64,000 nucleotides of DNA from Undibacterium hunanense (GTDB lineage Bacteria; Pseudomonadota; Gammaproteobacteria; Burkholderiales; Burkholderiaceae_D), in the NCBI RefSeq assembly GCF_014284335.1, contig NZ_JACOGF010000002.1:576659-640658 (forward strand), read 5' to 3'. Made by a program: the position numbers and the translations under genes. Below, one piece after another: positions 11,642-44,723 of the stretch (the stretch's first letter is position 1; each line of letters starts with the position of its first letter). The notes beneath the pieces are model-generated. The model ran no database searches. It was not told the origin of the DNA and saw nothing but the letters and a program-made list of their open reading frames with translations.

Positions 11642-12595
11642 CTACTTATCCGCCTTTGGCACCCATACCCATGCCTTGTCACTGATCTTGACGGCCCTGG
11701 GTATGAGCTTGTTTTGATAGAACAGATCGGCAATTTCCTGCTGGCGATTCACTACCGCTGCGCTTACCGGCATGACGCCGTAGCGGCTGCGTTGTTGCCA
11801 GGTGTTGATCACATCCAGCGGCATGCCCAGTTGGGCCGCGATAATGCTGGCAAGCTGTTGTGGATTCTTGCTGGCCCAGGCACCGGTGGTGGCGAGTTCG
11901 CCCAGGATGATGTTCAAAGCCTGTGGATGTTTTTCTACCAGGCGGCGTGAAGCTTCGTAAAAACTGTTTGCTGGCAGCAAGCCCTGATGATCGGCCAGTA
12001 CCCTGACCGGTAAACTGTGTTGTACTGATGCCAGATAAGGGTCCCATACTATCCAGGCATCGATATTGCCGCTGACAAAGGCAGCACGGGCATCTGCCGG
12101 CGACAGGTAGATGGCTTGTATGTCCTGCATACCCAGGCCAGCCTTGCGCAGGGCCGCCAGTATCAACAGGTTGGAACTGGAGCCCTTCTGGAAGGCGACT
12201 TTCTTTCCCTTCAGTTCAGCGACACTTTTGATGGGGGAATCTTTCGGTACCAGTATGGCTTCACAGGTGGGCGAGGATGGTTCCGCGCCGACATACAGCA
12301 AATCCACACCAGCGGCTTGGGCAAATATCGGTGGTGGTGCGCCGGTCAGGCCAAAGTCTACATTGCCGCTATTCAAGGCTTCCAGCAATTGCGGGCCGGC
12401 AGGAAATTCTATCCACTTGATTTGGAATTTTTGCGCTGCCAGAGCTTTTTCCAGCGTGCCTTGCGCTTTCAGCACGGATAGCAGGCCGCTGCCTTTTTGA
12501 AAGCCTATGCCGATCAGTCTGTCATCGGCAGCCTGTGCAAGCAGACTGAACAGCAAGCTGGTTTTCAGCAAAAGAAGTAAAACTAATTTTTTCAT
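11642..12595 (-). CDS. ssuA: aliphatic sulfonate ABC transporter substrate-binding protein (SsuA-like)
   Basis: 317 residues. A signal peptide (MKKLVLLLLLKTSLLFSLLAQAA) precedes a periplasmic binding protein of the NMT1/SsuA type. Landmarks are IGFQKGSGLLSVLKAQGTLE, PAGPQLLEALNSGNVDFGLTG, LKGKKVAFQKGSSSN and SGNIDAWIVWDPYL. It should capture alkanesulfonates, or a related anion such as taurine, for an ABC importer. The permease and ATPase (ssuC, ssuB) are absent from the window, so it must work with components encoded elsewhere. It lies 86 bases downstream of the lacI-type gene on the same strand and next to an FMN monooxygenase cluster, supporting an organosulfur role. Confidence 0.82.
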   Translation of the reverse strand: MKKLVLLLLLKTSLLFSLLAQAADDRLIGIGFQKGSGLLSVLKAQGTLEKALAAQKFQIKWIEFPAGPQLLEALNSGNVDFGLTGAPPPIFAQAAGVDLLYVGAEPSSPTCEAILVPKDSPIKSVAELKGKKVAFQKGSSSNLLILAALRKAGLGMQDIQAIYLSPADARAAFVSGNIDAWIVWDPYLASVQHSLPVRVLADHQGLLPANSFYEASRRLVEKHPQALNIILGELATTGAWASKNPQQLASIIAAQLGMPLDVINTWQQRSRYGVMPVSAAVVNRQQEIADLFYQNKLIPRAVKISDKAWVWVPKADK

Positions 12596-12681
12596 AAATC
12601 ACTTTCTTGATGGTATCTTGAATTTGCATTCAGTTTGCATTGACTTTGCGTTGACTTTTTCTTCAGGGTTGTTTGATAGCT

Positions 12682-30251: not shown

Positions 30252-31748
30252 ATGAAAATCACCATCAGATTGTGTTTGAGTGCAGCCATGCTGGGCTTGC
30301 CTGGTTTGCCCATGGCGCAGACACCGACGCAACAGATAGAGCCGATTTTTGTTCCCGATACGCCGATTACTGCGGTCACCATATTTGGCAGCCTGCCCAA
30401 GCGCCCTGGTACTGCAGTAAGGCGTCTTGACCGTAATTCGGCGGGTTCCTGTGCCTTCAGCTTTACGTCTTATCAAGATCAGATCATCGATGATTATCTT
30501 GATCATTTCGAAGGCCGTGGCCGTAGCACTGACAATACCAATATGGGTGCAGATGCACCTCCGGGCCTTGGCGACCGCACTGAAGGTTTTCTCGACAGCA
30601 GCCCGTATGGTTCGGCTGCCGGTGGTGAACGGCTGGTAACCCCGGCAGAAGACAGCACGCAGACCAGCGCTGGCTGTTCTCAGGCGGATAGAAATTTTGC
30701 TGCTGGCCGCAATTATATTGCCCGCAAGGACAAAACCCTGGACCTGGCGTTTGCCGCTTATGATGCAGGTGATTTTCCCAAGGCACTGGAAGCTTTCAAG
30801 ACTTCGTATTCCGCAATTGGCTATGACGAAGCGGCCCTGATGTTGGGGAATATGTATTTCTATGGGCAAGGCGCACCGCGCGACACACGTCAGGCCATCA
30901 CCTGGTATGACAAACTGGCGGACTCCCGTCTGAATCCGTCACAATACAGTCCATTTGATCCCAAAGACCCGGAACGGGCATCGTTGCGGGTGCAGGCACA
31001 GTTGCGGCTGGCGCGTATCTACATGGCTGGGTATGACGTTCCTAAAGATCCTGTCAAAGCCAGACAATGGTACAAGGCAGCGGCAGAGTTGAATTTTGTA
31101 CCGGCCCGTTACGTACTGGCACGTTTTTACCAGAGCGGCTATGGCAGCAGCAAAGACATCCAGGAAGCGGTCAAGCTTTACACCAATGCCGCAGAATATG
31201 CGTATGTACCGGCACAATTGTCCCTGGCCAATCTTTATTACTATGGTGATGAAGTCAAACAGGATTTGCCGAGAGCATTTGCCTGGTACCAGCAGGCGGC
31301 CAAACAAAAAAAACCACAAGCCCTGTATGCATTGGCCCTGATGTTTGACCAGGGGCAGGGTGTTGCTGCTGACCCGGCTAAAGCCCTGGCCTTTTACAAG
31401 GAAGCTGCGGTTGCCGGACATCCTGATGCACAAAATTCTCTGGCCACCTATTTTTATACAGGCCAGATCGTCAGCAAGAATCTGCAGATAGCGCGTAATC
31501 TGTTTCAAAGTGCTGCCATGCAGAGCCAGCCGGATGCCATGGTGAATCTGGCGGCGATGTTGCTCAAGGGCGAAGGTGCCGCAGCTGACAAACCTCGCAA
31601 TAGTGATGAAGATACCGTGAAAGCCTATGTCTGGCTGAAACTGGTTGCCAAACTGGGCCGTGCACCGGCTGCAAGTGCTGCCGAGAAGCTGGAGACACGT
31701 CTGTCAGATGCACAGAAGGCCCAGGCCAAACGCATCCTGACGCCCTGA
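30252..31748 (+). CDS. secreted Sel1-repeat (TPR-like) protein
   Basis: 498 residues with a signal peptide (MKITIRLCLSAAMLGLPGLPMAQ). The first 150 residues are not recognised and contain CAFSFTSYQDQIIDDYLDHF. From about residue 165 there are at least six Sel1 units of about 36 residues, for example DEAALMLGNMYFYGQG, AQLRLARIYMAGYDV, ARYVLARFYQSGYG and AQNSLATYFYTGQIV. Such solenoids bind other proteins. It lies about 120 bases after the oligosaccharide receptor on the same strand, so it may assist the envelope machinery, but no specific partner is evident. Confidence 0.8.
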   Translation: MKITIRLCLSAAMLGLPGLPMAQTPTQQIEPIFVPDTPITAVTIFGSLPKRPGTAVRRLDRNSAGSCAFSFTSYQDQIIDDYLDHFEGRGRSTDNTNMGADAPPGLGDRTEGFLDSSPYGSAAGGERLVTPAEDSTQTSAGCSQADRNFAAGRNYIARKDKTLDLAFAAYDAGDFPKALEAFKTSYSAIGYDEAALMLGNMYFYGQGAPRDTRQAITWYDKLADSRLNPSQYSPFDPKDPERASLRVQAQLRLARIYMAGYDVPKDPVKARQWYKAAAELNFVPARYVLARFYQSGYGSSKDIQEAVKLYTNAAEYAYVPAQLSLANLYYYGDEVKQDLPRAFAWYQQAAKQKKPQALYALALMFDQGQGVAADPAKALAFYKEAAVAGHPDAQNSLATYFYTGQIVSKNLQIARNLFQSAAMQSQPDAMVNLAAMLLKGEGAAADKPRNSDEDTVKAYVWLKLVAKLGRAPAASAAEKLETRLSDAQKAQAKRILTP

Positions 31749-31752
31749 TATT

Positions 31753-31775
31753 GATTCGCCTGAGCGAATCCCGAT
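31753..31775 (+). terminator. hairpin directly after the Sel1 gene
   Basis: GATTCGC-CTGA-GCGAATC (31753-31770) begins 4 bases after the stop codon and is followed by CCGATTTTTA. A second, stronger hairpin follows at 31819. Confidence 0.5.
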
Positions 31776-31818
31776 TTTTATACGGCATGGAGACTCCTCC
31801 CTCCATGTCGTGTATCCC

Positions 31819-31846
31819 ACGGCTTGTTATTGACAAGCCGTTTTTT
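31819..31846 (+). terminator. intrinsic terminator
   Basis: Stem ACGGCTTGT / ACAAGCCGT (31819-31827 with 31833-31841) with loop TATTG and a run of six T. A classical rho-independent terminator isolating the Sel1 gene from metY. Confidence 0.85.
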
Positions 31847-31994
31847 CTTTTGACACCCACATCATCACTGATGCCGGGTGTTTCTGCATTTTTCAACTAT
31901 GTAAAACTGAAAAGCTTCCTTGTGGTTTGCAGGCACAGTTTTTATGATCAGTGCAGATGAGATAAGTTCTGACCAACATAATAAGGATAGTTAG

Positions 31995-33266
31995 ATGAAA
32001 CTGGAAACCATCGCCGTTCACGGCGGCTACACCCCCGACCCGACCACACGTGCTGTTGCCGTGCCCATCTACCAGACGGTCGCCTATGCGTTTGATAATA
32101 CCCAGCACGGTGCAGACCTGTTTGACCTGAAGGTGCAGGGAAATATTTATTCGCGCATCATGAACCCTACCAATGATGTGCTGGAAAAACGTGTGGCTGA
32201 ACTGGAAGGCGGGATAGCCGGCCTGGCGCTGGCGTCCGGTCAGGCGGCGATTACCTATGCCATACAGACTATCGCCGAAGCGGGTGACAATATTGTTTCT
32301 GCTTCCACGCTGTATGGCGGCACCTACAATCTGTTTGCCCATACCTTGCCGCAGTTTGGCATAGAAACCCGTTTTGCCGATTACCGTGATCCAGAATCTT
32401 TTGCCAGTCTCATCGATGAAAAAACCAAGGCGGTATTTGTTGAATCCATCGGCAACCCCCTGGGCAATATCACCGATATCGAAGCGATTGCCGCAGTGGC
32501 ACACCGTCATGGTGTGCCGCTGATTGTCGACAATACCGTGCCTTCTCCTTATCTGCTGCGCCCTATCGAGTTTGGCGCGGATATCGTCGTGCATTCCCTG
32601 ACCAAGTATCTGGGCGGGCATGGCAATTCCATAGGCGGCATCATCGTTGATTCCGGCAAGTTCCCGTGGGCGGAACACAAGCAACGTTTCAAACGTCTGA
32701 ATGAACCCGATGTGTCTTATCACGGCGTGGTGTATACCGAAGCACTGGGTCCGGCAGCCTATATCGGCCGTGCCCGTGTGGTGCCGCTGCGCAATACCGG
32801 TGCTGCACTGTCACCTTTTAATGCTTTCTTGATTTTGCAGGGAATAGAAACCCTGGCCCTGCGCCTGGACAGAATTACGGAAAACACCATCAAAATTGCG
32901 CGCTATCTTGACCAGCACACCAAGGTGAAATGGGTCAACTATGCCGGTTTGCCTGAACACCGGGATCACGCCCTGGCGCAAAAATACCTGGGTGGAAAAC
33001 CGTCCGGCATCCTGACTTTTGGTCTCGATGGTGGCAGGGAAGCCGGTGGCCGCTTCCAGGATGCATTGCAGTTATTTACCCGTCTGGTGAATATTGGTGA
33101 TGCTAAGTCGCTGGCCTGCCATCCTGCCAGCACCACGCACAGGCAGTTGAATCCGGAAGAACTGGCAAAAGCCGGTGTGACTGAAGATACCGTTCGCCTG
33201 TCCATCGGTATTGAGCATGTGGATGATCTGATCGCCGATCTGGAGCAGGCATTGGCAAGTGCCTGA
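31995..33266 (+). CDS. metY: O-acetylhomoserine sulfhydrylase (aminocarboxypropyltransferase)
   Basis: 423 residues of the Cys/Met-metabolism PLP enzyme family, at the length usual for MetY. Landmarks are HGGYTPDPTTRAVAVPIYQT, YSRIMNPTNDVLEKRVAELE, the PLP-binding Asp in VPLIVDNTVPSPYL and the Schiff-base lysine K204 in HSLTKYLGGHGNSIGG. It makes homocysteine from O-acetylhomoserine and sulfide in the cytoplasm. It lies in a sulfur-rich stretch with rhodanese, serine acetyltransferase and an encapsulated cysteine desulfurase, and could use sulfide released from them. No riboswitch-like structure was recognised in the 150-base leader. Confidence 0.9.
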   Translation: MKLETIAVHGGYTPDPTTRAVAVPIYQTVAYAFDNTQHGADLFDLKVQGNIYSRIMNPTNDVLEKRVAELEGGIAGLALASGQAAITYAIQTIAEAGDNIVSASTLYGGTYNLFAHTLPQFGIETRFADYRDPESFASLIDEKTKAVFVESIGNPLGNITDIEAIAAVAHRHGVPLIVDNTVPSPYLLRPIEFGADIVVHSLTKYLGGHGNSIGGIIVDSGKFPWAEHKQRFKRLNEPDVSYHGVVYTEALGPAAYIGRARVVPLRNTGAALSPFNAFLILQGIETLALRLDRITENTIKIARYLDQHTKVKWVNYAGLPEHRDHALAQKYLGGKPSGILTFGLDGGREAGGRFQDALQLFTRLVNIGDAKSLACHPASTTHRQLNPEELAKAGVTEDTVRLSIGIEHVDDLIADLEQALASA

Positions 33267-33288
33267 TCTTTGTGGTCAGGCAGTTTGA

Positions 33289-33317
33289 GAATGCATTTCA
33301 GCCGCTGAAATGCATTC
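33289..33317. terminator. bidirectional hairpin between convergent genes
   Basis: A perfect 13-base inverted repeat (33289-33301 with 33305-33317) around a CCG loop. It stands between the stop codons of metY and the sensor kinase. T-tracts on both sides are weak. Confidence 0.55.
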
Positions 33318-33324
33318 TGCCAGT

Positions 33325-35631
33325 TTAGTTGTTGTCGTTCGCCACTGGTGCTGGTACCAGTGGCAGTTCGAAGAAGAATTTGCTGCCTACATCGATCGTT
33401 GATTCAAAGCCGATGCTGCCGCCCATTTTCTCGATGATGGTCTTGCAAATATTTAAACCCAGGCCAGTGCCGCCTTTTTTGCGGGTATTGGAACTGTCCA
33501 CCTGGCTGAATTTCTGGAATATCTTGCTGTGGAAATGACTGGGAATGCCGCTGCCATAATCAGTGACAATGACCTTTACCTTGTCTGCCGTTTTTTCTAC
33601 CGATACGACCACTTCGCCGCCCTTGTGAGAAAACTTGATGGCGTTTGACAGCAGGTTTGCCAGTACCTGTGCATAGCGGTCACGGTCAACATTCACATAC
33701 AGTTCTGCATCATCACCGATGGCGCGCATACTGACGCCATACTGGTCCGAATACGACATATTGCCGCTGATAGCATCCTGTATCAGGGGCTGCAGGGCAC
33801 TGACCTTGAAATCGAATTCCATCTTGCCTGAAGCGATTTTTTCCAGGTCCAGTATGTCATTGATCAGGTGTAGCAGACGGTCTGCATTGCGCATGGCCAC
33901 TGTGGTCAGTTCCTTGGCCTTGTCCGGGATTTCACCTGCCACGCCGGCGGCCACCAGACGCAAGGCACCGTTGATCGAGGTCAGTGGTGTGCGCAATTCA
34001 TGGCTGACCATGGACACAAATTCATTCATCATCATTTCCACTCGCTTGCGATCGGCAATGTCAAAGCTGATGGCATAAAAGCCTTCAACTTCGTCGCGGT
34101 CATTCACCGCAGGTACGTACACGGACTGGTAATAATAAGTGCGTTTATTGAGTTCGCCTGTTCCTTCAAAACTGGCACGTTGCCCTGCCAATACATTTTT
34201 CACATAGCCAGCCATAGGCTTATAAAACTCTTCCCCTACAACTTCACGCAGGGTTTTGCCTATCAGCTGTTCCGGCCTGACCCCGAATTCTGACGTGATG
34301 AAGGCGTTCACAAACACATATCTTTCTTCCAGATCCATGAAGGTGATGATGCAGGGCAGGTTATCGGTGATGGCCTGCAGACGGCTTTGGACATTGCGTT
34401 GCTGTTGCAACGCCAGCTCCAGTTCGCTGGCCTTCTGTTTGATTTCATGCGTGCGTTCGGCGACGGTGGTTTCCAGACTCTGGTTGGCGCTTTCCATATC
34501 AGCCAGGTGACGTTCTTCTTTTTCCACCATGTCGGCCAGGGTGACTGACAAAAGATGTGCCTCATGATAAGCATTGACGATAGGAATAGACGGCGTGACA
34601 GCAGTACCGCCACGCTTGAGCGAACGCTGTTCAATCGCGGTACTGAGTCTGATCAGTGATGCCGATGCCCGGCGTGCCAGCAACGCTGCTACCAGAGCCA
34701 GGATCAGCCCCAGCAAGCCACAGAACAAGAGAATTTCTTTTTCCAGATTGTGCAGGGCCGCCATGGCAATGTCTTTGGGCTGGCGTACCAGAATGCTCCA
34801 TTGCAGGGCCGGGTAGTTGCGTGCCTGCCCGGTCAGGGCATAGCCGGTCAGGTAGAGTTTGCCATCTTCAAATGTTTCTTCGACTGTTCCAGTTTTACCC
34901 GAGCGCGATTGTGTCAGGCTGCTGGACTTGATTTTCTTTTCTTCCATGCCCTTGGGGCCAAGCAGTACCGTGCCGTCATCACGGACTATCATGATGTCAA
35001 CATTGTATTGCTGATCTGCCGGGGCCAGTATGGTCTGGGCCAGCTTGCGCGCCCAGTTCCAGCTCAGGTGTACACCCAGTACCCCACGCAGGCTGCCATC
35101 AGCCCGACGGACAGGGATGGCAACATCCACAAAACGCCATGGGTCGGCGCTATACGGCAATAACTTTTGCAACAGCAGAGCCGGATGGTAGTCGCCAGCG
35201 TACAGCGCCTTTTTACCCTGCTGGAACCAGGGGCGCTGGCTGACATCCTGTCCCTCCAGCAAGCCCTTGCTGGATGCCAGAACCTTGCCGTCGGGGCTGG
35301 CCAGGCCTATCCAGGCATAATCGGTGAAATTGTTTTGCAGGCTGTCGAGGATGCGGCGTATTTCAGATGGGTCCTGCGCATCCCTGATCTGGCTTAATTG
35401 CGACAGCAATTGCACATCGCCTACTGATTTTTGCATGACCAGATCAATCTGGTCGCGCATTTGCCAGGAAAGCTGTTGCAGCCTTTGTTCAGCCTCTTTT
35501 TGCGCATAATTATTGGCAAAATGATCGACCAGCAGCAGGGCTGACAAGACGGTACACAAGACGACGGCACTGACGCCAAGTGTCAGCAGGGTGGCAAGCC
35601 GCGGGCGGGAAGTCGGTTTTAGTAAAGACAT
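33325..35631 (-). CDS. membrane sensor histidine kinase (Cache-PAS-HisKA-HATPase)
   Basis: 768 residues. Transmembrane segments at about 14-35 and 299-319 flank a periplasmic double-Cache sensor (about 45-285, with WIGLASPDGKVLAS, RPWFQQGKKALYAGDYHP and VHLSWNW). A signalling coil (365-415) leads to a PAS domain (415-530). The dimerisation domain has the phosphoacceptor His544 in SHELRTPL. The ATPase domain has the N box NLLSNAIKFSH, G1 DYGSGIP and G2 GTGLGLNICK. No receiver domain and no response regulator gene nearby, so it is an orphan kinase. It is divergent from the encapsulin operon across 347 bases and could sense a small ligand relevant to it. Confidence 0.9.
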   Translation of the reverse strand: MSLLKPTSRPRLATLLTLGVSAVVLCTVLSALLLVDHFANNYAQKEAEQRLQQLSWQMRDQIDLVMQKSVGDVQLLSQLSQIRDAQDPSEIRRILDSLQNNFTDYAWIGLASPDGKVLASSKGLLEGQDVSQRPWFQQGKKALYAGDYHPALLLQKLLPYSADPWRFVDVAIPVRRADGSLRGVLGVHLSWNWARKLAQTILAPADQQYNVDIMIVRDDGTVLLGPKGMEEKKIKSSSLTQSRSGKTGTVEETFEDGKLYLTGYALTGQARNYPALQWSILVRQPKDIAMAALHNLEKEILLFCGLLGLILALVAALLARRASASLIRLSTAIEQRSLKRGGTAVTPSIPIVNAYHEAHLLSVTLADMVEKEERHLADMESANQSLETTVAERTHEIKQKASELELALQQQRNVQSRLQAITDNLPCIITFMDLEERYVFVNAFITSEFGVRPEQLIGKTLREVVGEEFYKPMAGYVKNVLAGQRASFEGTGELNKRTYYYQSVYVPAVNDRDEVEGFYAISFDIADRKRVEMMMNEFVSMVSHELRTPLTSINGALRLVAAGVAGEIPDKAKELTTVAMRNADRLLHLINDILDLEKIASGKMEFDFKVSALQPLIQDAISGNMSYSDQYGVSMRAIGDDAELYVNVDRDRYAQVLANLLSNAIKFSHKGGEVVVSVEKTADKVKVIVTDYGSGIPSHFHSKIFQKFSQVDSSNTRKKGGTGLGLNICKTIIEKMGGSIGFESTIDVGSKFFFELPLVPAPVANDNN

Positions 35632-35978
35632 AAATGGGCACTTTATCTTGGGGCGTATCGCTGGAACTCATGCCATCCCTGTTTTTGCAATGAGTTCCTT
35701 CTGTTCGGGGCAGTCATTGTCATAAATTTAATAACCAGACTGACCTGTTGGATTTCCGTTTATTGCTCAGATGATACTCTCAAAATTTCTGCATTTGCTG
35801 GGCTTGTATGAAAACAAGCCAGTGTTTTCGTCGGCGATGGCAGTTTCCACAGTGATTCTTGATATCTGTTTTTCAGATAAATAACAACATTTTTATTCGT
35901 TTTGCGCCTTAGATAAATTCGGTACATTGAAACTCTGTTACGAACCAAATTCGTTTTTGTTGTTAGCCAGAGTATTTC
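35632..35978. other. divergent promoter region, sensor kinase / encapsulin operon
   Basis: 347 bases without a gene. AT-rich from about 35860 to 35960. A dyad TATCTG-TTTTT-CAGATA (35863-35879) lies about 100 bases before the rhodanese start and is a candidate regulator site. No specific factor can be named. Confidence 0.45.
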
Positions 35979-36497
35979 ATGACCGATTCTACATTTGCAT
36001 CTACAGAGTTATCGTCTGCCAGCCAGGCGGACGAAACATCATCTTCGGGTAGCGAAGACCACGCACTGGCGAATGCCAGAGCAGTTGCGCAGGCAGCAGG
36101 CCTGGTGTTTTCCGGCAGTGTTGCGCCAACTGACGCCTGGCGTCTGGTACAGAGTAACCAGGCCATTCTGGTCGACGTGCGAACGGCGGAAGAACGCAAG
36201 TTTGTTGGCCATGTGGCCGACGCCGTCCACGTGCCCTGGGCCACCGGCACAGCCCTGACCCGTAACCCAAGATTCGTCAAGGAACTGGAAACCAAAGTCA
36301 AAGACAAGTCCAGAGTCGTCCTGCTGCTGTGTCGTAGCGGAAAACGCTCGACAGCCGCTGCTGAGGCTGCGGCCAAAGCAGGTTTCAGCAACATTTTCAA
36401 TGTGGCAGAGGGCTTTGAAGGTGACTTGAATCCAGAGCAGCAACGCGGCCAGCTTGGTGGCTGGCGTTTTCACCAGTTACCGTGGATACAGGATTAA
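35979..36497 (+). CDS. rhodanese-like sulfurtransferase, encapsulin operon
   Basis: 172 residues. A single rhodanese domain with the active-site loop CRSGKRS (Cys118) following VVLLL, plus LVDVRTAEERKFVGHVADAVHVPW. The catalytic Cys should carry a persulfide and pass sulfur to or from an acceptor. The first 28 residues are Ser/Glu-rich and look disordered, which is not needed for the fold. First gene of a four-gene operon with serine acetyltransferase (49 bases on), encapsulin and cysteine desulfurase. Known family 2A encapsulin loci often include a rhodanese, so it likely handles sulfane sulfur made or stored by the compartment. Confidence 0.88.
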   Translation: MTDSTFASTELSSASQADETSSSGSEDHALANARAVAQAAGLVFSGSVAPTDAWRLVQSNQAILVDVRTAEERKFVGHVADAVHVPWATGTALTRNPRFVKELETKVKDKSRVVLLLCRSGKRSTAAAEAAAKAGFSNIFNVAEGFEGDLNPEQQRGQLGGWRFHQLPWIQD

Positions 36498-36545
36498 GGC
36501 GATGTCATCCGCTTCATTGTTATAAGAGAAGAAAGGTAAAGGCAG

Positions 36546-37529
36546 ATGGTCAGCTTTACAGAAGAGACACCCGTACAGTCAGTAACGCCAGTCAGGGATC
36601 AGCGTGGCTCACTGTTTGGTATCGAGCAGGTAGTCAGTGAACTGGCCGCCGTCAGGCATGCATGGCGACGCCGTCAGCAACGTTCATCCGAACCGGGAGG
36701 GCGTGAATTGCCATCCCGTGATGCACTGGCAAAAATTATTTCCGATCTGCGTGGGGCATTGTTTCCCATGCGTCTGGGGCCGCCGGAATTGCGTCAGGAA
36801 AGCGAAGATTTCTATGTCGGCCATACGCTGGACACGGCACTGCATTCAATGCTGAGCCAGGTCAGGCTGGAACTCAGTTACACCTCGCGCTATTACGAGC
36901 AGGAAGACCTGCATATAGAAGACCGTGCCCTGCATATCGTGCGTGAATTTTCGCGCGCATTGCCAGCGATTCGCTCACTGCTGGATAGTGACGTGATTTC
37001 GGCTTACCAGGGTGATCCGGCAGCCCGGACTGTGGATGAAGTACTGCTCTGCTACCCCGGCATCCTGGCCATGATCCATCATCGCATCGCCCATCAGTTA
37101 TACCAGTCTGGCGTGCCTTTGCTGGCGCGCATCGTGGCAGAAATAGCTCATGCACAAACCGGCATAGACATTCACCCTGGCGCCAGCATAGGTGCAGGGT
37201 TTTTCATCGACCATGGCACCGGTGTGGTGATAGGTGAAACCGCCATCATCGGCCAGCGCGTGCGTATTTACCAGGCGGTGACCCTGGGGGCCAAACGCTT
37301 CCCTACCGATGATGAAGGCAAATTGCAAAAAGGCTTGCCACGACACCCGGTGGTGGAGGACGACGTGGTCATTTATGCCGGTGCCACTGTACTGGGGCGA
37401 GTGACGCTGGGGCGCGGTGCCATCATCGGCGGCAATGTCTGGGTGACAAATGATGTGGCTGCCGGTTCCCACGTCAGTCAGGCCAGCCTGCGGCATGAAC
37501 ATGGAGCACTGCCATCCCCAGCCTTGTAG
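36546..37529 (+). CDS. serine O-acetyltransferase (SrpH/EpsC-type)
   Basis: 327 residues, start after AAGGTAAAGGCAG. An alpha-helical N-terminal domain (about 1-190) is followed by a left-handed beta-helix of hexapeptide repeats: GIDIHPGASIGAGFFIDHGTG, VVIGETAIIGQRVRIYQAVTLGA and VVIYAGATVLGRVTLGRGAIIGGN. The catalytic His lies in IDHGTG. It makes O-acetylserine from serine and acetyl-CoA, the precursor for cysteine. It lacks the C-terminal Ile of CysE that binds cysteine synthase (it ends PSPAL). In family 2A encapsulin operons a serine acetyltransferase of this type is a usual neighbour, tying the shell to cysteine turnover. Confidence 0.9.
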   Translation: MVSFTEETPVQSVTPVRDQRGSLFGIEQVVSELAAVRHAWRRRQQRSSEPGGRELPSRDALAKIISDLRGALFPMRLGPPELRQESEDFYVGHTLDTALHSMLSQVRLELSYTSRYYEQEDLHIEDRALHIVREFSRALPAIRSLLDSDVISAYQGDPAARTVDEVLLCYPGILAMIHHRIAHQLYQSGVPLLARIVAEIAHAQTGIDIHPGASIGAGFFIDHGTGVVIGETAIIGQRVRIYQAVTLGAKRFPTDDEGKLQKGLPRHPVVEDDVVIYAGATVLGRVTLGRGAIIGGNVWVTNDVAAGSHVSQASLRHEHGALPSPAL

Positions 37530-37673
37530 GCAGACCAGGCAGATCAGTCAGGCAGATTAGTAAGGCAGATTTTTTAACGACAGGCGTCAACCTGTTTTTT
37601 TGATGGGCTTGAAATTTTTATTCTTGAAGTTTTCATTTGTTCCGATTCACCGTATTTTTAAATGGAGTAAGCA

Positions 37674-38603
37674 ATGACCGATGTGTCTCCCAGTAATTTC
37701 GCACTCAGTGACAACGCCGCCAGGCAGTTAGCGAATGCAACCAAAACCGTTCCTCAGTTATCCACCATTTCACCACGCTGGCTGGTGCATTTGCTGCAAT
37801 GGCTGCCGGTAGAGGCAGGTATTTATCGCCTCAACAAAGTCAAAAATCCTAAAGATGTCCGGGTGGCCTGTTCCCAGCGTGACGAGTCTGAACTGCCACA
37901 GACTTTTGTCGATTATGACGAACAGCCACGTGAATACTTCCTCAATGCTGTGGCAACCGTGCTGGACGTACATACCCGTATTTCTGATCTGTACAGCAGC
38001 CCGCATGACCAGATCAAGGAACAACTGCGCCTGACGGTAGAAACCATCAAGGAACGTCAGGAAAGCGAACTCATCAACAATCCTGATTACGGCCTGTTGG
38101 CGAATGTGCATGATGATCAGCGTATTTCCACACTGACCGGTGCACCTACCCCTGATGATCTGGATGACCTGCTGACCAAAGTCTGGAAAGAGCCTGGTTT
38201 CTTCCTGGCCCATCCGCTGGCGATTGCTGCCTTTGGCCGTGAATGCACACGCCGTGGCGTGCCACCACCAACGGTGAGTTTGTTTGGTTCCCAATTCCTG
38301 ACCTGGCGCGGTGTACCACTGGTACCTTCCGACAAACTGCCTATCGAAGACGGCAAAACCAAGATCATCCTGTTGCGCGTGGGTGAAAAGCGTCAGGGTG
38401 TGGTTGGCCTGTTCCAGCCGGGCCTGGCTGGCGAACAAAGCCCCGGTCTGTCGGTACGTTTCATGGGCATCAACCGCAATGCGATTGCCTCATATCTGAT
38501 TTCCCTGTACTGCTCGCTGGCAGTCCTGACGGATGATGCGGTTGCTGTTCTGGATGACGTAGAGATCGGTAAGTACCATGACTATCCTGACACCTACAAG
38601 TAA
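37674..38603 (+). CDS. family 2A encapsulin shell protein (SrpI-like)
   Basis: 309 residues, start after a GGAG ribosome site. I recognise the family 2A pattern: an N-terminal arm (LANATKTVPQLSTISPRWLVHLLQWLPVEAGIYRLNKVK), an HK97-like core with YFLNAVATVLDVHTRISDLYSSPHDQIKEQ, and the late segment GLSVRFMGINRNAIASYLISLYCSLAVLTDDAVAVLDDVEIGKYH. Length matches the family (about 310). Such proteins assemble into icosahedral protein shells in the cytoplasm that enclose a cysteine desulfurase. No cNMP-binding insert, which separates 2A from 2B. The stop lies 26 bases inside the next gene, the desulfurase, as expected for co-assembly of shell and cargo. Confidence 0.93.
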   Translation: MTDVSPSNFALSDNAARQLANATKTVPQLSTISPRWLVHLLQWLPVEAGIYRLNKVKNPKDVRVACSQRDESELPQTFVDYDEQPREYFLNAVATVLDVHTRISDLYSSPHDQIKEQLRLTVETIKERQESELINNPDYGLLANVHDDQRISTLTGAPTPDDLDDLLTKVWKEPGFFLAHPLAIAAFGRECTRRGVPPPTVSLFGSQFLTWRGVPLVPSDKLPIEDGKTKIILLRVGEKRQGVVGLFQPGLAGEQSPGLSVRFMGINRNAIASYLISLYCSLAVLTDDAVAVLDDVEIGKYHDYPDTYK

Positions 38604-40464
38604 TACCGGCGCGGCAAATGCGGGTTTGCCGGATGAAGCCCTGCTGAATCGCATGGCATCAGAGTTTTTTGCTCTGGTGCCGGGCGCAGCGCAAGCTGCT
38701 GCGCAATTCCTGCCGGGTTTTTCGGAAGCTGGCAGTGCACCTGTAGCGTCTGTATCAGCACCAGGCCGTCTGTCTTCTGTCAGCGAATCTGGCAATCATT
38801 CTGGCAGTAATGCCGGTGCAGCGCTTACGCAGCCATCCACGCAGCCATCAATTTATGCCAGCGCCATTCCACAGAATGGTGGCAGCAGTGTCGCACCGTC
38901 ACGTCCACAGGCGGGTGGTGCGCCTCTCTCAACACCGGCAGCATCGACGACGCCTTATTATTTTATTGGTGCCGACAATGGTTACCCGGTAGCCGATGGC
39001 AATCTGGATGGTCTCGCTGCGCAGGGAACAGGCCGGCAGGCAGATCAGACACTGGCACGCTCTTTTGGTCTGCCAGGGCAGGATCAGTTGCAGCAACTGC
39101 TGGGCGAGCTGTATCCGGCCAATACCCAGGCAGCTCCGGCGGCTGGGGCAGATGCAGATGCGCGTCCTGCGTATTATTTTCAGCAGGGTGAGCAGGATTA
39201 CTGGGATACCGCACCCCGGGCGGCCAACCCCGCACTGGCTGCACCGTTTGATATCAATGCCGTGCGCCGTGATTTTCCCATCCTGGCAGAACGGGTGAAT
39301 GGCAAGCAACTGGTCTGGTTTGACAATGCAGCGACGACCCAAAAACCACAGTCGGTGATAGACAGGCTCAGCTATTTTTATGAGCATGAAAATTCCAACA
39401 TCCATCGCGCAGCGCATGAACTGGCAGCACGGGCTACAGACGCCTATGAAGGTGCACGCAGCAAGGTTGCAAAGTTTTTGGGCGCTGCATCGGTAGATGA
39501 AATCATCTTCGTGCGCGGTGCCACAGAAGCTATCAATCTGGTTGCCAATACCTTTGGTAAAAAGTTTATCGGTGCTGTTGATGAAATTATCGTGTCGCAG
39601 CTGGAACACCATGCCAACATCGTGCCATGGCAGCAACTGGCAGCCGAGAAGGGTGCGGTCATCCGCGTTATTCCTGTGGATGACAGTGGCCAGATCATTC
39701 TGGATGAATATCGCAAGTTGCTCAACAGCAAAACGCGACTGGTCGCAGTGACCCAGGTCTCGAATGCTTTGGGCACGATCACACCGGTGCAGGAAATCAT
39801 TGCACTGGCGCATAGTGCCGGTGCCCGTGTGCTGATTGACGGCGCTCAGGCAGTGTCACACCTGCGTGTGAATGTGCAGGCCCTGGATGCCGATTTTTAT
39901 GTGTTTTCAGGACACAAGGTATTCGGTCCTACCGGCATAGGTGTGGTGTATGGCAAGAAGGCATTGCTGGATCAGTTGCCGCCATGGCAGGGCGGTGGCA
40001 ACATGATTGCTGACGTGACGTTTGAGCGTACGCAATATCAACCGGCACCGGCACGTTTTGAAGCCGGTACCGGCAATATTGCCGATGCAGTCGGTCTGGG
40101 TGCAGCGATTGATTATGTCGAACGCCTGGGACTGGAAAATATTGCTCTGTATGAACATGCCTTGCTGGAATACGCAACGCATGGTCTGAAGAGCATACCC
40201 GGTGTACGCCTGATAGGTACGGCCCATGAAAAGGCCAGTGTTGCTTCGTTTGTACTGGAAGGCTATCAGACCGAAGAAGTTGGCAAGGCACTCAATGAAG
40301 AGGGTATTGCCGTCCGTTCCGGTCACCACTGTGCGCAACCTATCCTGCGTCGCTTTGGTGTCGAGGCTACGGTACGTCCTTCTTTTGCGTTCTACAATAC
40401 CTGCGAAGAAATTGATCGCCTGCTGGCAGTGGTACGTCGTCTGGCAAATCAAAAAAGGAATTGA
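38578..40464 (+). CDS. cysteine desulfurase, encapsulin cargo with long N-terminal loading domain
   Basis: 628 residues. About 1-223 is a low-complexity, Ala/Ser/Pro/Gly-rich segment with islands likely to bind the shell: LNRMASEFFALVPGAAQA, TPYYFIGADNGYPVADG, SFGLPGQDQLQQLLGELYP and RPAYYFQQGEQDYWD. From 224 it is a SufS-type (group II) desulfurase: WFDNAATTQKPQSV, the PLP lysine K447 in FSGHKVFGPTG, and the catalytic Cys585 in RSGHHCAQP. It releases sulfur from cysteine as a persulfide, giving alanine. Ordinary SufS is about 400 residues, so the extension is specific to encapsulation. Start overlaps the shell gene by 26 bases. Confidence 0.93.
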   Translation: MTILTPTSNTGAANAGLPDEALLNRMASEFFALVPGAAQAAAQFLPGFSEAGSAPVASVSAPGRLSSVSESGNHSGSNAGAALTQPSTQPSIYASAIPQNGGSSVAPSRPQAGGAPLSTPAASTTPYYFIGADNGYPVADGNLDGLAAQGTGRQADQTLARSFGLPGQDQLQQLLGELYPANTQAAPAAGADADARPAYYFQQGEQDYWDTAPRAANPALAAPFDINAVRRDFPILAERVNGKQLVWFDNAATTQKPQSVIDRLSYFYEHENSNIHRAAHELAARATDAYEGARSKVAKFLGAASVDEIIFVRGATEAINLVANTFGKKFIGAVDEIIVSQLEHHANIVPWQQLAAEKGAVIRVIPVDDSGQIILDEYRKLLNSKTRLVAVTQVSNALGTITPVQEIIALAHSAGARVLIDGAQAVSHLRVNVQALDADFYVFSGHKVFGPTGIGVVYGKKALLDQLPPWQGGGNMIADVTFERTQYQPAPARFEAGTGNIADAVGLGAAIDYVERLGLENIALYEHALLEYATHGLKSIPGVRLIGTAHEKASVASFVLEGYQTEEVGKALNEEGIAVRSGHHCAQPILRRFGVEATVRPSFAFYNTCEEIDRLLAVVRRLANQKRN

Positions 40465-40481
40465 AGCAAGGCAATTTGACA

Positions 40482-40528
40482 CGCTGGTCATGCCAGGCCG
40501 ATAAGCCTGGTATGCCAGCGTTTTTTTT
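40482..40528 (+). terminator. strong intrinsic terminator closing the encapsulin operon
   Basis: A stem of about 16 pairs with one bulged base (40482-40498 with 40505-40520), loop CGATAA and a run of eight T. It begins 18 bases after the desulfurase stop, so the ccmH-like gene downstream is a separate unit. Confidence 0.9.
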
Positions 40529-40748
40529 CGCACCAACAACGAATAGTTGCTGAAATCGTGGACAGCACATACCTGCTGATGTTTGCTGTAAGGCGTTTGA
40601 AATTCCGCAGTGCAGCGCATATTCATATCTGAATTAATTCGCTTACTTTTTATCCTGCACACGGTATATTGAAGCTGTCTTTACCCCTAGAGGAATTTCA
40701 GGCTCGCGCAGTATGGCGAGCCATTTTTTAGAGACATTCAACTTCAGC

Positions 40749-41231
40749 ATGAATAGTGACAGGATAAAAGCTGGCCTTCATATGGCAATGATATTGCTGG
40801 TTTCTGCCGCTTTTTATTTGCTGTGGCCCAGCCTGGCGGCTGCTGCGCCACGTGAGGAATCTGCATCAGGTATCGAGCAGCGGGTACAAAAACTCGCACA
40901 AGAATTGCATTGCCTGGTGTGCCGGAATCAGACGCTGGCAGATTCACATACAGAAATGGCGGTCAATCTGAAACAACAAATTCGCGAAAAAATTCAGCAA
41001 GGCCAGGATGAACAGCAGATTACTGATTTTCTGCTGACACGTTATGGCGATGTCGTGCGTTACCGGCCAACACTGAATGTACAAACTCTGTTGCTATGGA
41101 GCGGACCTTATCTATTGCTGCTGACCGGCCTGATCTGGTTGTTTGCAAGATTCAGATCTGCCAGTAGTCTGGATGATGGGCAAGAACCCGCAAGCATCGA
41201 AGTACAACATTATTCTGACCCCTTGTTGTGA
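40749..41231 (+). CDS. ccmH: CcmH/CycL-type cytochrome c biogenesis thioredoxin-like protein (orphan)
   Basis: 160 residues from 40749; ATGs at 40713 and 40782 are also possible. A signal sequence (ILLVSAAFYLLWPSLAAAA) is followed by the CcmH domain with the redox pair in LHCLVCRNQTLADS, then EKIQQGQDEQQITDFLLTRYGDVVRYRP. One C-terminal membrane helix follows (LLLWSGPYLLLLTGLIWLF). The family reduces the haem-binding cysteines of apocytochrome c at the periplasmic side of the membrane. Normally it is encoded in a ccmABCDEFGH cluster; no other ccm gene is here. A dedicated terminator separates it from the encapsulin operon. Confidence 0.83.
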   Translation: MNSDRIKAGLHMAMILLVSAAFYLLWPSLAAAAPREESASGIEQRVQKLAQELHCLVCRNQTLADSHTEMAVNLKQQIREKIQQGQDEQQITDFLLTRYGDVVRYRPTLNVQTLLLWSGPYLLLLTGLIWLFARFRSASSLDDGQEPASIEVQHYSDPLL

Positions 41232-41351
41232 CGTTTTTGAGCGGCATGTCATGAATCCTGCGTGATGCATGTATAGGCACGTATAGGCGCGTATTGGAAT
41301 GTACCATCATGCTTCGATACATGCCTTAATACATGGCTCAATTTATTCGTC

Positions 41352-42788
41352 TTATTCTTCTTTCAATGCGCGGTAATGGTCAGCCTGGGCCTTGCCGTCT
41401 ACCGCATGGGTTTTGACATCTTTGGTAATGGGCAGCATCTGTGCATTCCAGTTTTCCCAGTCCTGTTTGAGTTTGGCGAATACTTGCGGATGCTTTTGCG
41501 CCAGATTTGCTCTTTCGCGCGGGTCATGCACCACATCGAACAGAAACTCATTGTCGGCAATTTTCAGATATTTCCAGTCGCCTGAACGGACTGCTTTTTG
41601 CTGGTTGGCTTTATAGCGCCAGTACAGTGTGCGCGGGTGTGCCGGCTGGTTAGCGATAAGATTTGGCAGCAGGTTGTCACCATCGCCGGGGTAGGCTGGG
41701 TCAGGTGCACCGCCAGCTGCAGCCAGCAAGGTGGGCAGCCAATCCATACTGATGGCTACCTGATTGCTGACTTGCCCCGGCTTGATTTTTTCTGGCCAGC
41801 GAACGATAGCAGGCACGCGTATGCCGCCTTCCAGCAGTTCAGTTTTTTGACCACTGAGTGGCCAGGTTTTGGAAAAACGCTCGCCACCATTGTCACTGGT
41901 GAAGACCACAATGGTATTGTCCGCCAGGCCCTGTTCGTCCAAACTTTTCAACACCCGCCCTATCGCAACATCCAGCGATACGACCATTTTTGCATAGGTT
42001 TCCAGGCTGCCGCCGTCGAGGTGGTACAGGCTTTTTATTTCACGCGACACTGCTTCATCTTCCGGTGCTTCCCATGGCCAATGTGGCGCGGTGAAATGCA
42101 GTGACAGGAAGAAGGCCTTGTCCCTGTTTTGCTGTTTCAGATAATCGACAGCCCGGTCTGCCAGCAAATCGGTGTAATAGCCGGTTTTGCTGACCGCCAC
42201 CTCGCCTTCAAATAAACCATCTTTGGCGTCTGCGCCAACCCCGGTCTTGTGTGTGAAATAATCAATTGCCCCACCGTAGTTGCCAAAGAAAACATCGTAT
42301 CCGCTTTTCAGCGGACTGAATTTGGGCAAGCTTCCCAGATGCCATTTGCCAAACAGGGCCGTGGCATATCCCTGTTTTTTCAATAATGAAGGCAGGGTCG
42401 GGTGCTCTGGCGGCAGGCCTATCGTGTCTGACGCGCCGGAGATCGGTTCTTCCAGCCCTCCGCGCAGCCGGTATTGGTAGCGTCCTGTGATCAGGCCAAA
42501 GCGGGTGGCCGAACAAACTGCCGAATTGGCATACGCCTGGGTAAATCGTAGCCCTTGCCTGGCCAATTGGTCAAGATGCGGGGTCTGAAAATCTGTCTGC
42601 CCATAAATACTGAGATCGGCATAGCCCAGGTCATCTGCCAAAATGAAGATGATGTTCGGCTTGGCTGGGGTTGTTGCCTTGGTACTGGCATTCCCGGCCG
42701 CTGCGGCGACACCGCTGATGGCTGAACCCAGCGACAGCGCAGACAGACTGCCGATTACTTGCCGGCGTTTCTTGTTGAAATGGGACAT
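41352..42788 (-). CDS. secreted sulfatase (arylsulfatase family, Cys-type)
   Basis: 478 residues from 42788. The N-terminus KKRRQVIGSLSALSLGSAISGVAAAA looks like a twin-arginine or Sec signal. The sulfatase core starts at PNIIFILADDLGYADLS with the metal-binding Asp pair. The modification motif is CSATR (Cys92), a C-x-A-x-R variant of the usual C-x-P-x-R in which the Cys is oxidised to formylglycine. Later metal and substrate residues are in TSDNGGERFSKTWPLSGQK. It hydrolyses sulfate esters in the periplasm and could release sulfate from sulfated polysaccharide or aryl compounds. No maturase (sulfatase-modifying factor) lies in the window. Confidence 0.88.
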   Translation of the reverse strand: MSHFNKKRRQVIGSLSALSLGSAISGVAAAAGNASTKATTPAKPNIIFILADDLGYADLSIYGQTDFQTPHLDQLARQGLRFTQAYANSAVCSATRFGLITGRYQYRLRGGLEEPISGASDTIGLPPEHPTLPSLLKKQGYATALFGKWHLGSLPKFSPLKSGYDVFFGNYGGAIDYFTHKTGVGADAKDGLFEGEVAVSKTGYYTDLLADRAVDYLKQQNRDKAFFLSLHFTAPHWPWEAPEDEAVSREIKSLYHLDGGSLETYAKMVVSLDVAIGRVLKSLDEQGLADNTIVVFTSDNGGERFSKTWPLSGQKTELLEGGIRVPAIVRWPEKIKPGQVSNQVAISMDWLPTLLAAAGGAPDPAYPGDGDNLLPNLIANQPAHPRTLYWRYKANQQKAVRSGDWKYLKIADNEFLFDVVHDPRERANLAQKHPQVFAKLKQDWENWNAQMLPITKDVKTHAVDGKAQADHYRALKEE

Positions 42789-43192
42789 ATGATTTGATTC
42801 AAATAATGTGTGGATATCTGGCGATCTGTTAACTGCCAACAGGTCGGGAGATAATAGCTGCTTGCCGGTATTGTAGGTTTGATGTGTGGATTGTTGTCAA
42901 TAACTGGCAAGAATATGTTTGCATAAGCTCATGCGACTGTGCCATACAAACTGCAAAGCGAGTGCAGAGCTGTAGTTTCGCGTTACGGCAAACAAGCTGC
43001 CAGGATCATCAGTGCAGTCATCATCAGTGCAGTCATCATCAGTGCAGTCATCATCAGTGCAGCCATCAGAAATCAGGACTATGATGATGGATGCTGAAAG
43101 GATGCTGGCAGCACGCAGTATGCTCAAAGCCTGTAGTACCTGCCACGACAGCTACCATCCATTCAAATAAATCGATAATTCAGGAGAACAAG
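42789..43192. other. 404-bp divergent intergenic region
   Basis: Lies between the sulfatase and the dienelactone hydrolase genes. Apart from the 15-bp tandem array at 43005-43064 and the hydrolase ribosome site (CAGGAGAACAAG), nothing recognisable was found. Confidence 0.5.
43005..43064. repeat. 15-bp tandem repeat, four copies
   Basis: Unit ATCATCAGTGCAGTC repeated four times head to tail, the last copy with one T-to-C change. It lies about 130 bases upstream of the dienelactone hydrolase start. No spacers, so not a CRISPR array. Confidence 0.9.
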
Positions 43193-44083
43193 ATGACACG
43201 CCAGACAGCAAATGATTTCAAGCCGGAAGTGCTGCGTTTATTTGATCAGTATGTACATGGCGTCATTGATCGCCGTGCTTTCTTGCAGTCAGCCAGCAAA
43301 TATGCGGTTGGTGTGGTGACGGCAGAAACCATGTTGCAACAGCTTAGCCCGAATTTCGCCCAGGCCCAGCAAGTGCCAAAGACCGATGCACGGATACAGG
43401 CCAAATATGTTGAATATCCTTCACCACACGGTTCGGGTACCCTGCGCGGCTATCTGGTCACTCCTGCTGAAATCAAGGGAAAACTGCCCGCAGTGCTGGT
43501 GGTGCATGAAAACCGTGGCCTGAATCCGCATATCGAGGATATAGCGCGCCGCCTGGCGCTGGATGGTTTCATTGCCTTTGCCCCGGATGCGCTGGCATCG
43601 CTGGGTGGCTACCCTGGTGATGAAGAAAAGGCCCGTGAACTGTTTCCCAAGCTGGATCAGAACAAGATCCGTGCAGATTTTATTGAAGCCGCTGCAATAC
43701 TGAAAAAACTGCCTGAAGCCAATGGCAAGGTAGGCGTGGTCGGCTTCTGTTATGGCGGTGGCATTGCCAACTTCCTGGCAACCAGAATCCCTGATCTGGC
43801 TGCTGCCGTACCTTACTATGGTGGCCAGCCAGGTGAAGAAGATGCGGCAAAAATCAAGGCGCCACTTTTGATCCATTATGCCGGTACGGATGAACGCGTC
43901 AATGCCGGATGGCCAAAATATGAAGCTGCGCTGACCAGGGCCGGTGTCAAGTATCAGGCATATGTCTACGCCGGTACCCAGCATGGCTTCAATAATGATA
44001 CGACGCCACGGTACGACCAGGCAGCAGCAACATTGTCATGGCAGCGTACAGTCGAGTTTTTCAAAGCCAATCTGCGTGCCTGA
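43193..44083 (+). CDS. dienelactone hydrolase family protein (YghX-like)
   Basis: 296 residues, start after a perfect CAGGAGAACAAG ribosome site. The N-terminal region has a Tat-like stretch (DRRAFLQSASKYAVGVVTAETML). The hydrolase core has VLVVHENRGLNPHIEDIARRLA (Glu106, the acid that pairs with the nucleophile in this family), the nucleophile Cys186 in GFCYGGG, Asp in HYAGTDERVN and His in GTQHGFNN. The Cys-Asp-His triad is typical of dienelactone hydrolases. Substrate unknown; with a Tat-like leader it may be exported, which is unusual for ring-cleavage enzymes. Confidence 0.87.
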   Translation: MTRQTANDFKPEVLRLFDQYVHGVIDRRAFLQSASKYAVGVVTAETMLQQLSPNFAQAQQVPKTDARIQAKYVEYPSPHGSGTLRGYLVTPAEIKGKLPAVLVVHENRGLNPHIEDIARRLALDGFIAFAPDALASLGGYPGDEEKARELFPKLDQNKIRADFIEAAAILKKLPEANGKVGVVGFCYGGGIANFLATRIPDLAAAVPYYGGQPGEEDAAKIKAPLLIHYAGTDERVNAGWPKYEAALTRAGVKYQAYVYAGTQHGFNNDTTPRYDQAAATLSWQRTVEFFKANLRA

Positions 44084-44141
44084 TAGTCTGCCAGTCGGGC
44101 AGTCGCTTGAAGTCGATAGCCGCTTTAAACCGATAGTCCCC

Positions 44142-44723
44142 TTAAACCGATTTCAGAATGAAATCGCTGGTGTCACGCAGTACAGCCTTCGTTTTTGTAG
44201 GGCTGTCCATCATGCGTGACAGCAGCAGGCCGCCTATCATTGATGCCAGCACGGCGTGTGCCTTGGCTTCCACTTCATCATTATCGACGCCTTCACGTTG
44301 CAACTGCGTGCTGATCAGTGCCAGCAGATTGTTCACACCCTGCTGTATGGTTTCCTTGCCTATGCCGTCTTGGCGTATGGCTTCCGGGCCCAGGGTGGCG
44401 ATGGTGCAGCCAAGACCTGGGTTGTCGCTGTGGGCTTTGCTCAGATAAGTGTGTACCAGGGTGCTCAATGCCTCATCGTCGGGGGCAGCGGCGATTTTAC
44501 GTCGCAGTTCAGTCTTGGTGGCTTCCAGCGCTGCTGCGCAGGCTTCGGCGATCAATGCTTCCTTGGATTCAAAGTGCTTGTAAAAGCCGCCATGGGTCAG
44601 GCCTGCTTCATTCATCAGATCCGCCACACCTATGCCATTGATGCCGCGTTCGCGATACAGACGTGCCGCTGTCTCGACAATGCGTTCTCTGGTTTGCGCA
44701 GCTTGTTCACGTGAAGTTCTCAT
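44142..44723 (-). CDS. TetR-family transcriptional regulator
   Basis: 193 residues. The DNA-binding domain is RERIVETAARLYRERGINGIGVADLMNEAGLTHGGFYKHFESKEALIAEA split across the usual three helices, with the recognition helix around LTHGGFYKHF. The C-terminal domain has HSDNPGLGCTIATLGPEA, as in the branch that often represses a divergent hydrolase or oxidoreductase for reactive carbonyls or esters. Converges on the dienelactone hydrolase. Upstream it faces the alpha/beta hydrolase at 45138, but a 272-bp repeat element lies between them. Confidence 0.88.
   Translation of the reverse strand: MRTSREQAAQTRERIVETAARLYRERGINGIGVADLMNEAGLTHGGFYKHFESKEALIAEACAAALEATKTELRRKIAAAPDDEALSTLVHTYLSKAHSDNPGLGCTIATLGPEAIRQDGIGKETIQQGVNNLLALISTQLQREGVDNDEVEAKAHAVLASMIGGLLLSRMMDSPTKTKAVLRDTSDFILKSV

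Follow-up and report, generated by a model that had tools for sequence, protein, structure and literature searches.

Genes of the operon and their relatives

The window analyzed here is a stretch of 64,000 nucleotides from Undibacterium hunanense. All four reading frames claimed by an earlier sequence-only reading were found on the + strand at its coordinates, and each was identified by both Pfam and NCBIfam models. They encode a single-domain rhodanese (35979..36497, 172 aa; PF00581, 57 bits) with the catalytic loop CRSGKRS, a serine O-acetyltransferase (SAT) of the EpsC/SrpH type (36546..37529, 327 aa), a family 2A encapsulin shell protein (37674..38603, 309 aa) and the cargo cysteine desulfurase CyD (38578..40464, 628 aa). 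The set is closed by an intrinsic terminator on the same strand (40482..40528; stem 40482-40520 and T run 40521-40528, both read by eye). Its claimed strength agrees with the fold of 40484-40534, which has an MFE of -25.4 kcal/mol and a z of -5.74 and was equalled by none of 200 shuffles. No Rfam matches at the gathering threshold were detected in 31000-44500. As judged from its sequence, the segment 35979-40528 is a family 2A encapsulin operon comprising rhodanese, SAT, shell, CyD and terminator.

The order rhodanese-SAT-shell-CyD on a single strand is found in 67 of 81 related loci. A rhodanese is present in 77 of the 81, and its loop CRSGKRS is kept in 75 of the 77 homologues examined. The SAT matches NF041874 (EpsC) with 165 bits against a cut-off of 150; together with its identity to the Synechococcus elongatus SAT (below), this bears out the description of the enzyme as SrpH-like. 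Housekeeping CysE was rejected as its identity, the TIGR01172 score of 170 bits being below the cut-off of 210.65; another SAT, scoring 234.2 bits, is encoded elsewhere in the genome. Seven of the 81 loci, a Zoogloea group, have no SAT match within the DNA examined, and SAT is therefore not indispensable.

The claim that the system is especially novel found no support. A 2021 survey (PMC8346489), which counts 1281 family 2A operons with cysteine desulfurase cargo, already ranks SAT and rhodanese first among the enriched accessory genes of such operons. The SrpI/CyD prototype on the S. elongatus PCC 7942 plasmid NC_007595.1 has the same genes plus cysK, in the order cysK-SAT-srpI-cyd-rhodanese. 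Residues identical with the window proteins number 230/306 for the shell and 166/308 for the SAT adjoining srpI, and 286 of 406 alignment columns are identical for the catalytic part of CyD. In both clusters SAT lies directly upstream of the shell gene and a rhodanese is included. The S. elongatus cluster differs in that it contains cysK, has no overlap between the shell and CyD genes, and carries its rhodanese gene downstream of CyD, where it encodes a shorter protein (39/116 identical).

Shell protein and cargo desulfurase

The assignment of the shell to family 2A was checked by HMM search: NF041162 matched over the full model with 551 bits (cut-off 380). The family 2B model NF041163 gave a lower, partial match of 432 bits, and the cNMP-binding domain that marks family 2B is absent, PF19307 (357 bits) being the sole Pfam domain at E 0.001. 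By sequence comparison, the closest solved shell is 'Major membrane protein I' (PDB 8t6r), which matches residues 7-309 with 602 bits and which we take to be the A. baumannii encapsulin; SrpI (6x8m) scores 517 bits. The SrpI residues F262 and Y273, located near cargo density at the threefold axis according to the eLife paper (PMC8049743), are kept in the window shell as F263 and Y274.

CyD had been described as a SufS-type desulfurase enclosed as cargo, and NF041166 matches residues 1-622 with 912 bits (cut-off 800). The catalytic motifs are the PLP-lysine motif SGHK at 444 and RSGHHC at 580. R[SAT]GHHC, the motif with the active-site cysteine, occurs in 73 of 74 homologues with a reading frame ending inside the contig, the sole exception (L032) being a broken frame; five further homologues cut by contig or locus ends were left out of this count. 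The start codon of CyD lies within the shell gene, and the two genes overlap, as had been claimed, the overlap being 26 nt. Of the 81 loci, 61 allowed this length to be measured: 59 have 26 nt and two have 29 nt; such retention indicates that the overlap is not due to chance.

The 223-residue leader of the sequence-only reading is also real in extent: the low-complexity N-terminal region (38578..39246) spans about 223 residues, and the SufS model begins at residue 228. Its disorder was assessed from composition only. The leader contains LNRMASEFF at residue 23 and YYF at 127 and 199. Two YYF/FYF motifs occur in 62 of the 67 leaders that could be examined among the 81 loci, and the S. elongatus leader has one such motif as against two in the window. 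Leader-dependent cargo loading is known for relatives from the literature.

An element common to rhodanese and sulfate-binding-protein promoters

The rhodanese gene is preceded, at 35875..35903 (+), by a conserved element, ATAA-N11-TTTATTCGTTTT, which is a candidate sulfate-limitation box. It is common to the rhodanese promoters of 13 loci of the genus and to the promoters of sulfate-binding-protein genes of the genus. A matrix built from the rhodanese promoters gave a mean of 14.4 bits on the latter as compared with -6.9 inside the genes themselves, and at least 8 bits in 25 of 28 sulfate-binding-protein promoters versus 12 of 179 control promoters. Thirty-two such loci had been named, of which L168 and L195 (no full ORF) and L176 and L180 (short upstream sequence) were left unscored, and L164 duplicates L159. 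L165, the second such gene of the genome to which the window belongs, reached only 6.5 bits. In the reverse test, a matrix of 19 distinct sulfate-binding-protein sites (those of L165, L178, L182 and L184, scoring 5.9-8.3, being excluded) scored all 11 distinct rhodanese sites at 12.2-20.6 bits. With this matrix the site at 35875-35903 has 16.1 bits and ranks third among all window positions on both strands.

Other sites in the window were also considered. A candidate box at 40617..40645 (+) precedes a lone CcmH-like gene (16.2 bits, same matrix). The top-scoring site, 12607(-), lies across the start codon of an SsuA-like gene (NF008588, 333 bits), whose signal-peptide codons probably match by chance; the fifth-best, 10440(-), lies inside a + strand ORF. 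In many other genera the element is not recognisable, with at least two core mismatches in 37 of 89 loci. This count takes in L106, L108, L109, L115 and L116, five of the 14 loci from the genus, which appear to be the same records as L002, L007, L003, L040 and L038 and are thus counted twice. Searching the genome for ATAA-N11-TTWATTCGTT with two mismatches was unspecific (57 matches versus 145 for the reversed control); the sole exact match is at the window's own site, from which the pattern had partly been derived. Another pattern, TTTATTCGTTTT-N6-TTAG, has the wrong spacer for the window, gave 5 matches versus 10 in the control and was discarded.

Sharing of the element with sulfate-binding-protein promoters predicts that the operon is induced by sulfate limitation. 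The regulator would probably be of the CysB type, a name suggested by the class of genes; in the main texts of the literature searched, no paper connecting encapsulins with CysB was found. SrpI and CyD of S. elongatus increase under sulfate starvation (PMC8049743).

The sequence-only reading had also drawn in metY, just outside the operon. This gene (31995..33266, +; TIGR01326, 664 bits, cut-off 495) encodes an O-acetylhomoserine/O-acetylserine sulfhydrylase. The link is supported in a changed form: a candidate box at 31895..31923 (+) has 12.3 bits with the sulfate-binding-protein matrix, and metY promoters of six relatives in the genus carry sites of 8.9-18.8 bits, although the rhodanese-promoter matrix gives the window site -5.1 bits. 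The gene is a separate unit, divided from the operon by an opposite-strand histidine kinase gene (33325-35631), and among the 81 related loci only 6 have a metY match in the flanking DNA examined.

Region between the SAT and shell genes

The proposal that all four genes share a single mRNA is unproven, because SAT and shell are separated by 144 nt, the gap holds a weak terminator-like hairpin (37579..37596, +; MFE -6.8, z -1.45, equalled by 17 of 200 shuffles), and relatives seem to possess an internal promoter here. A small XRE-like gene precedes the shell gene in 51 of the 81 related loci. An operator-like site ahead of the shell gene was found in 48 of these 51 and in none of the 30 loci lacking the gene, using a relaxed pattern that was loosened after the strict misses had been viewed; with the strict 13-mer and up to two mismatches the counts were 45/51 and 0/30. 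Two of the 30 have less than 300 nt of upstream sequence. A tree test of the co-occurrence yielded five supported independent pairs, all of which agree in most of 200 pairings, with a median p of 0.0625; five pairs are unable to reach 0.05. In contrast to these relatives, the window has neither an XRE gene nor an operator-like site between SAT and shell. Among the papers listed by a literature search, none joined encapsulins with the term 'XRE family'.

These observations could be explained by two separately controlled units, with rhodanese and SAT transcribed from the promoter at 35875 and shell and CyD from their own promoter within 37530-37673. The 144-nt gap with its hairpin, and the conserved site overlapping a TTGANN hexamer just before the shell in 48/81 loci, which resembles an internal promoter, make this a reading to be taken seriously. 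However, the window lacks both that site and the XRE gene, a promoter scan of its gap revealed no sigma-70-like site, and 16 of 71 loci measured have a gap no longer than about 100 nt (33-96 nt), so that we lean somewhat away from it.

For proteobacterial family 2A operons in general we consider it rather probable that there are two layers of control. One, observed in Undibacterium, would be the sulfate-limitation box driving the first genes. The other, in many lineages, would be an XRE regulator of 75-90 residues, encoded between SAT and shell and acting on a [N][AT]TAG[CG]NNGTTG[AT] site that overlaps the -35 of a promoter serving shell and CyD alone. The lineage of the window is without both gene and site, suggesting that they are gained or lost jointly as a cassette.

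Proposed role in sulfur metabolism

The identities of the shell, desulfurase, rhodanese and SAT fit the role in sulfur metabolism that had been proposed. What the genes encode, how the operon is arranged and conserved, and its sharing of a promoter element are observed, and we hold it very likely that this family 2A encapsulin operon serves to handle sulfur when sulfate is limiting. A regulator responding to sulfur status, probably of the CysB type, would act at 35875-35903 to switch on rhodanese and SAT, and shell and CyD would be expressed by read-through or from a second promoter. The 26-nt overlap would couple shell with CyD, which its disordered leader would dock inside the shell. There CyD would strip sulfur from cysteine to give sulfane sulfur, to be kept in the shell or handed to acceptors, for which the operon's own rhodanese is a candidate. 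SAT would supply O-acetylserine, letting released or imported sulfide return to cysteine; for the sulfhydrylase step this organism would rely on enzymes encoded outside the operon, possibly MetY.

Storage of sulfur in this species and the use of the rhodanese as acceptor are what we infer, and the 'complete sulfur bank and withdrawal module' of the sequence-only reading may be entertained on the same terms. Against the model as a whole, S. elongatus knockouts show no growth defect (PMC8049743). A starvation box suits the scavenging or redistribution of sulfur no less than the banking of a surplus.

The shell may instead serve delivery, restricting the persulfide of CyD to the partner rhodanese so that chosen targets receive the sulfur, as proposed in PMC8346489. 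Retention of the rhodanese (77/81 loci) and its catalytic loop (75/77) speaks for this. However, we know of no contact between rhodanese and shell, and a 2024 study in Sci Adv reportedly found that the A. baumannii homologue stores elemental sulfur, which leaves delivery a rather doubtful substitute for the store. Cysteine desulfurases reduce free cysteine, and a compartment for oxidative stress or cysteine detoxification, rather than sulfate-starvation physiology, could be imagined, but the promoter element common to sulfate-binding-protein genes makes it improbable.

The genes of the operon are thus one more case of an already described system found in many bacteria, and the wider question here is what triggers the sulfur compartments and what empties them. 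From the shared element, expression of the operon is predicted for times of sulfate shortage, and simple models in which surplus is banked are constrained accordingly; the XRE-operator pair of the relatives offers a concrete switch for testing.

Identity of the operon

The four open reading frames of the sequence-only reading were borne out at the positions it gave them, all on the top strand: rhodanese at 35979-36497, serine acetyltransferase (SAT) at 36546-37529, shell at 37674-38603 and cysteine desulfurase (CyD) at 38578-40464. The strong terminator proposed to close the operon is present at 40482-40528. Assignment of the shell to family 2A was confirmed with the NCBIfam family 2A shell model (551 bits; cut-off 380), and the desulfurase matched the family 2A cargo model over residues 1-622 (912 bits; cut-off 800). 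A Pfam search of the shell detected the SrpI-like domain only and no cNMP domain, indicating that the protein lacks the domain typical of family 2B. The solved shells nearest in sequence are 8t6r (602 bits) and SrpI of S. elongatus, 6x8m (517 bits), and this genome has one shell gene. The observation is correct, but the genes are a further example of a described kind and their central grouping is already described: in a 2021 survey (PMC8346489), SAT and rhodanese are the accessory genes most enriched in such operons. What the analysis adds is regulatory and comparative.

Distribution and gene order

Undibacterium pigrum and Undibacterium sp. TS12 have shells with 99% identity to this one. Across the genus the shell is patchy (15 of 43 Undibacterium genomes, this one included). 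Among 81 loci (the best 80 of a contig scan plus the window's own), 67 have the one-strand order rhodanese-SAT-shell-CyD. The other fourteen comprise seven of a Zoogloea group, where no SAT match was found in the DNA available around the shell, five cut by contig ends, locus L081 with an inverted SAT, and L071. The last has a shell, an XRE gene and an operator-like site, with no CyD match within 10 kb downstream. In S. elongatus the order differs: cysK-SAT-srpI-cyd-rhodanese.

The shell/CyD overlap is nearly invariant (26 nt in 59 of 61 measurable loci). Of 74 complete CyD frames, 73 retain the catalytic cysteine motif, and 75 of 77 rhodaneses have the loop CRSGKRS. Eleven loci have a spacing of about 1 kb between rhodanese and SAT; five of six such gaps inspected contained a PLP-enzyme frame resembling cysteine synthase (confirmed as PF00291 in L039), the exception being L029.

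The CyD leader

According to passages of PMC8049743 (eLife 2021), the leader has two motifs, LARLANEFFS and AASPYYFLDG; residues 155-183, containing the second, are reported to be insufficient for loading. Our own pattern for the first motif found it in 48 of 67 leaders. The YYF/FYF motif is doubled in the window and in most of its relatives, the copies lying about 100 and 34 residues ahead of the catalytic part. Of 67 leaders, 62 have two copies, four have one and one has three, whereas the same pattern finds one in S. elongatus CyD.

Promoter element upstream of rhodanese

The element AGATAAATAACAACATTTTTATTCGTTTT is located upstream of the rhodanese gene (35875-35903, top strand). Within 400 nt upstream, its core ATTCGTTTT was exact in 25 of 89 loci, had at most one mismatch in 52 and at least two in 37, some genomes being entered twice; 1780 mononucleotide shuffles gave three exact matches. 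A matrix built on the genus's rhodanese promoters (11 distinct sites) scored a mean of 14.4 bits on promoters of sulfate-binding-protein (TIGR00971) genes versus -6.9 inside those genes. For 21 of these 28 promoters at most 2 of 200 shuffles scored as high, and in 20 the site ended 56-75 nt upstream of the first ATG. At least 8 bits were reached by 25 of the 28, against 12 of 179 other promoters of the genus loci and the window, the highest of the latter being metY of L114. This locus has the order metY-SAT-shell-CyD with no rhodanese match, and a 17-bit box precedes its metY.

Conversely, a matrix trained on sulfate-binding-protein sites only ranked the rhodanese promoter first (10) or second (3) on the top strand in all 13 genus loci with rhodanese; where it was second, the metY promoter was first. 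The top sites of the window were, in order, 12607 (bottom strand), 40617, 35875 and 31895 (all top strand), the last three preceding a CcmH-like gene, rhodanese and metY. With this genome excluded from training, first-order Markov windows (n=30) held a mean of 0.07 positions reaching the third score and 0.23 reaching the fourth. The site at 12607 is probably a chance match. The regulator, we infer, would be CysB.

The stretch 40617-41231 comprises the genome's sole CcmH-like gene (PF03918) and, 68 nt upstream of the gene's first ATG at 40713, its sulfate-limitation-like box. This ATG is overlain by a terminator-like hairpin and T run at 40701-40722 (MFE -15.7, z -3.8), and a second in-frame ATG follows at 40749, an arrangement suggestive of either a leader attenuator or a start placed wrongly.

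metY and other sulfur genes

The sequence-only reading had linked metY (31995-33266) to the operon. Of 14 other genus loci, 6 have a metY match adjoining the operon, and in every one of these the sulfate-binding-protein matrix gives a site of 8.9-18.8 bits. Among the 81 wider loci, 6 have a metY match anywhere in the available flanks. The link therefore stands as a neighbourhood in part of the genus and not as a general component of the system. The window's metY site is weak (-5.1 by the rhodanese matrix). Control of metY is probably related to that of the operon.

Elsewhere the genome encodes five more proteins that score above 300 bits for PF01053, and a second SAT that scores higher than the operon's. 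The window also carries another sulfur-scavenging gene, for an SsuA-like aliphatic sulfonate-binding protein (11642-12595; NF008588, 333 bits), and a gene for a sulfatase-family protein (41352-42839; PF00884, 234 bits) that might supply additional sulfate.

XRE gene and operator-like site in relatives

The SAT-shell gap spans 33 to 479 nt (71 loci measured). In gaps of about 330 nt there is a small frame for an HTH_3-domain protein of roughly 75-90 residues (55.5 bits in L005, the one tested). This XRE gene occurs in 51 of the 81 loci and 5 of 14 genus loci; it was not detected in the window, and its protein's nearest relative elsewhere in this genome scores 64 bits. An operator-like site, [N][AT]TAG[CG]NNGTTG[AT], was present in 48 of the 51 loci with the gene versus none of the 30 without it, 28 of which had at least 300 nt of upstream sequence to search. 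It lies 74-95 nt (once 226 nt) upstream of the shell and occurs elsewhere six times in 2.96 Mb of strand. Loci with both include L005, L004, L018 and L061. On a quick shell and CyD tree the trait changed 13 times, and the site tracked the gene in five supported independent pairs (median p 0.0625).

The site ends in TTGANN, and in many loci a GAYAMT-like hexamer follows about 17 nt further on; read by eye, this suggests a sigma-70 promoter with a candidate regulator site covering the -35 element. XRE genes of L007, L108, L111 and L113 have a divergent recognition segment, SYISEIECG, and the usual site is missing there; their specificity might have changed. The main texts of PMC8346489 and PMC8049743 mention neither XRE nor HTH, and none of the papers listed by a literature search paired XRE with encapsulin. 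Gene and site are the newest part of the analysis, though outside the window itself.

Proposed role

Elemental-sulfur storage was reportedly described in Science Advances in 2024. In our model, the operon would be expressed under sulfate limitation, CyD would be loaded into the shell via its leader and strip sulfur from cysteine inside, the sulfane sulfur would be held or passed on, with rhodanese as candidate carrier, and SAT would provide O-acetylserine for re-fixation. For S. elongatus, loading and starvation induction are known from passages of PMC8049743; we infer the other steps for this host. The sequence-only reading proposed a sulfur bank and withdrawal module; a box common to sulfate-uptake genes suits a scavenging role no less well than a bank.
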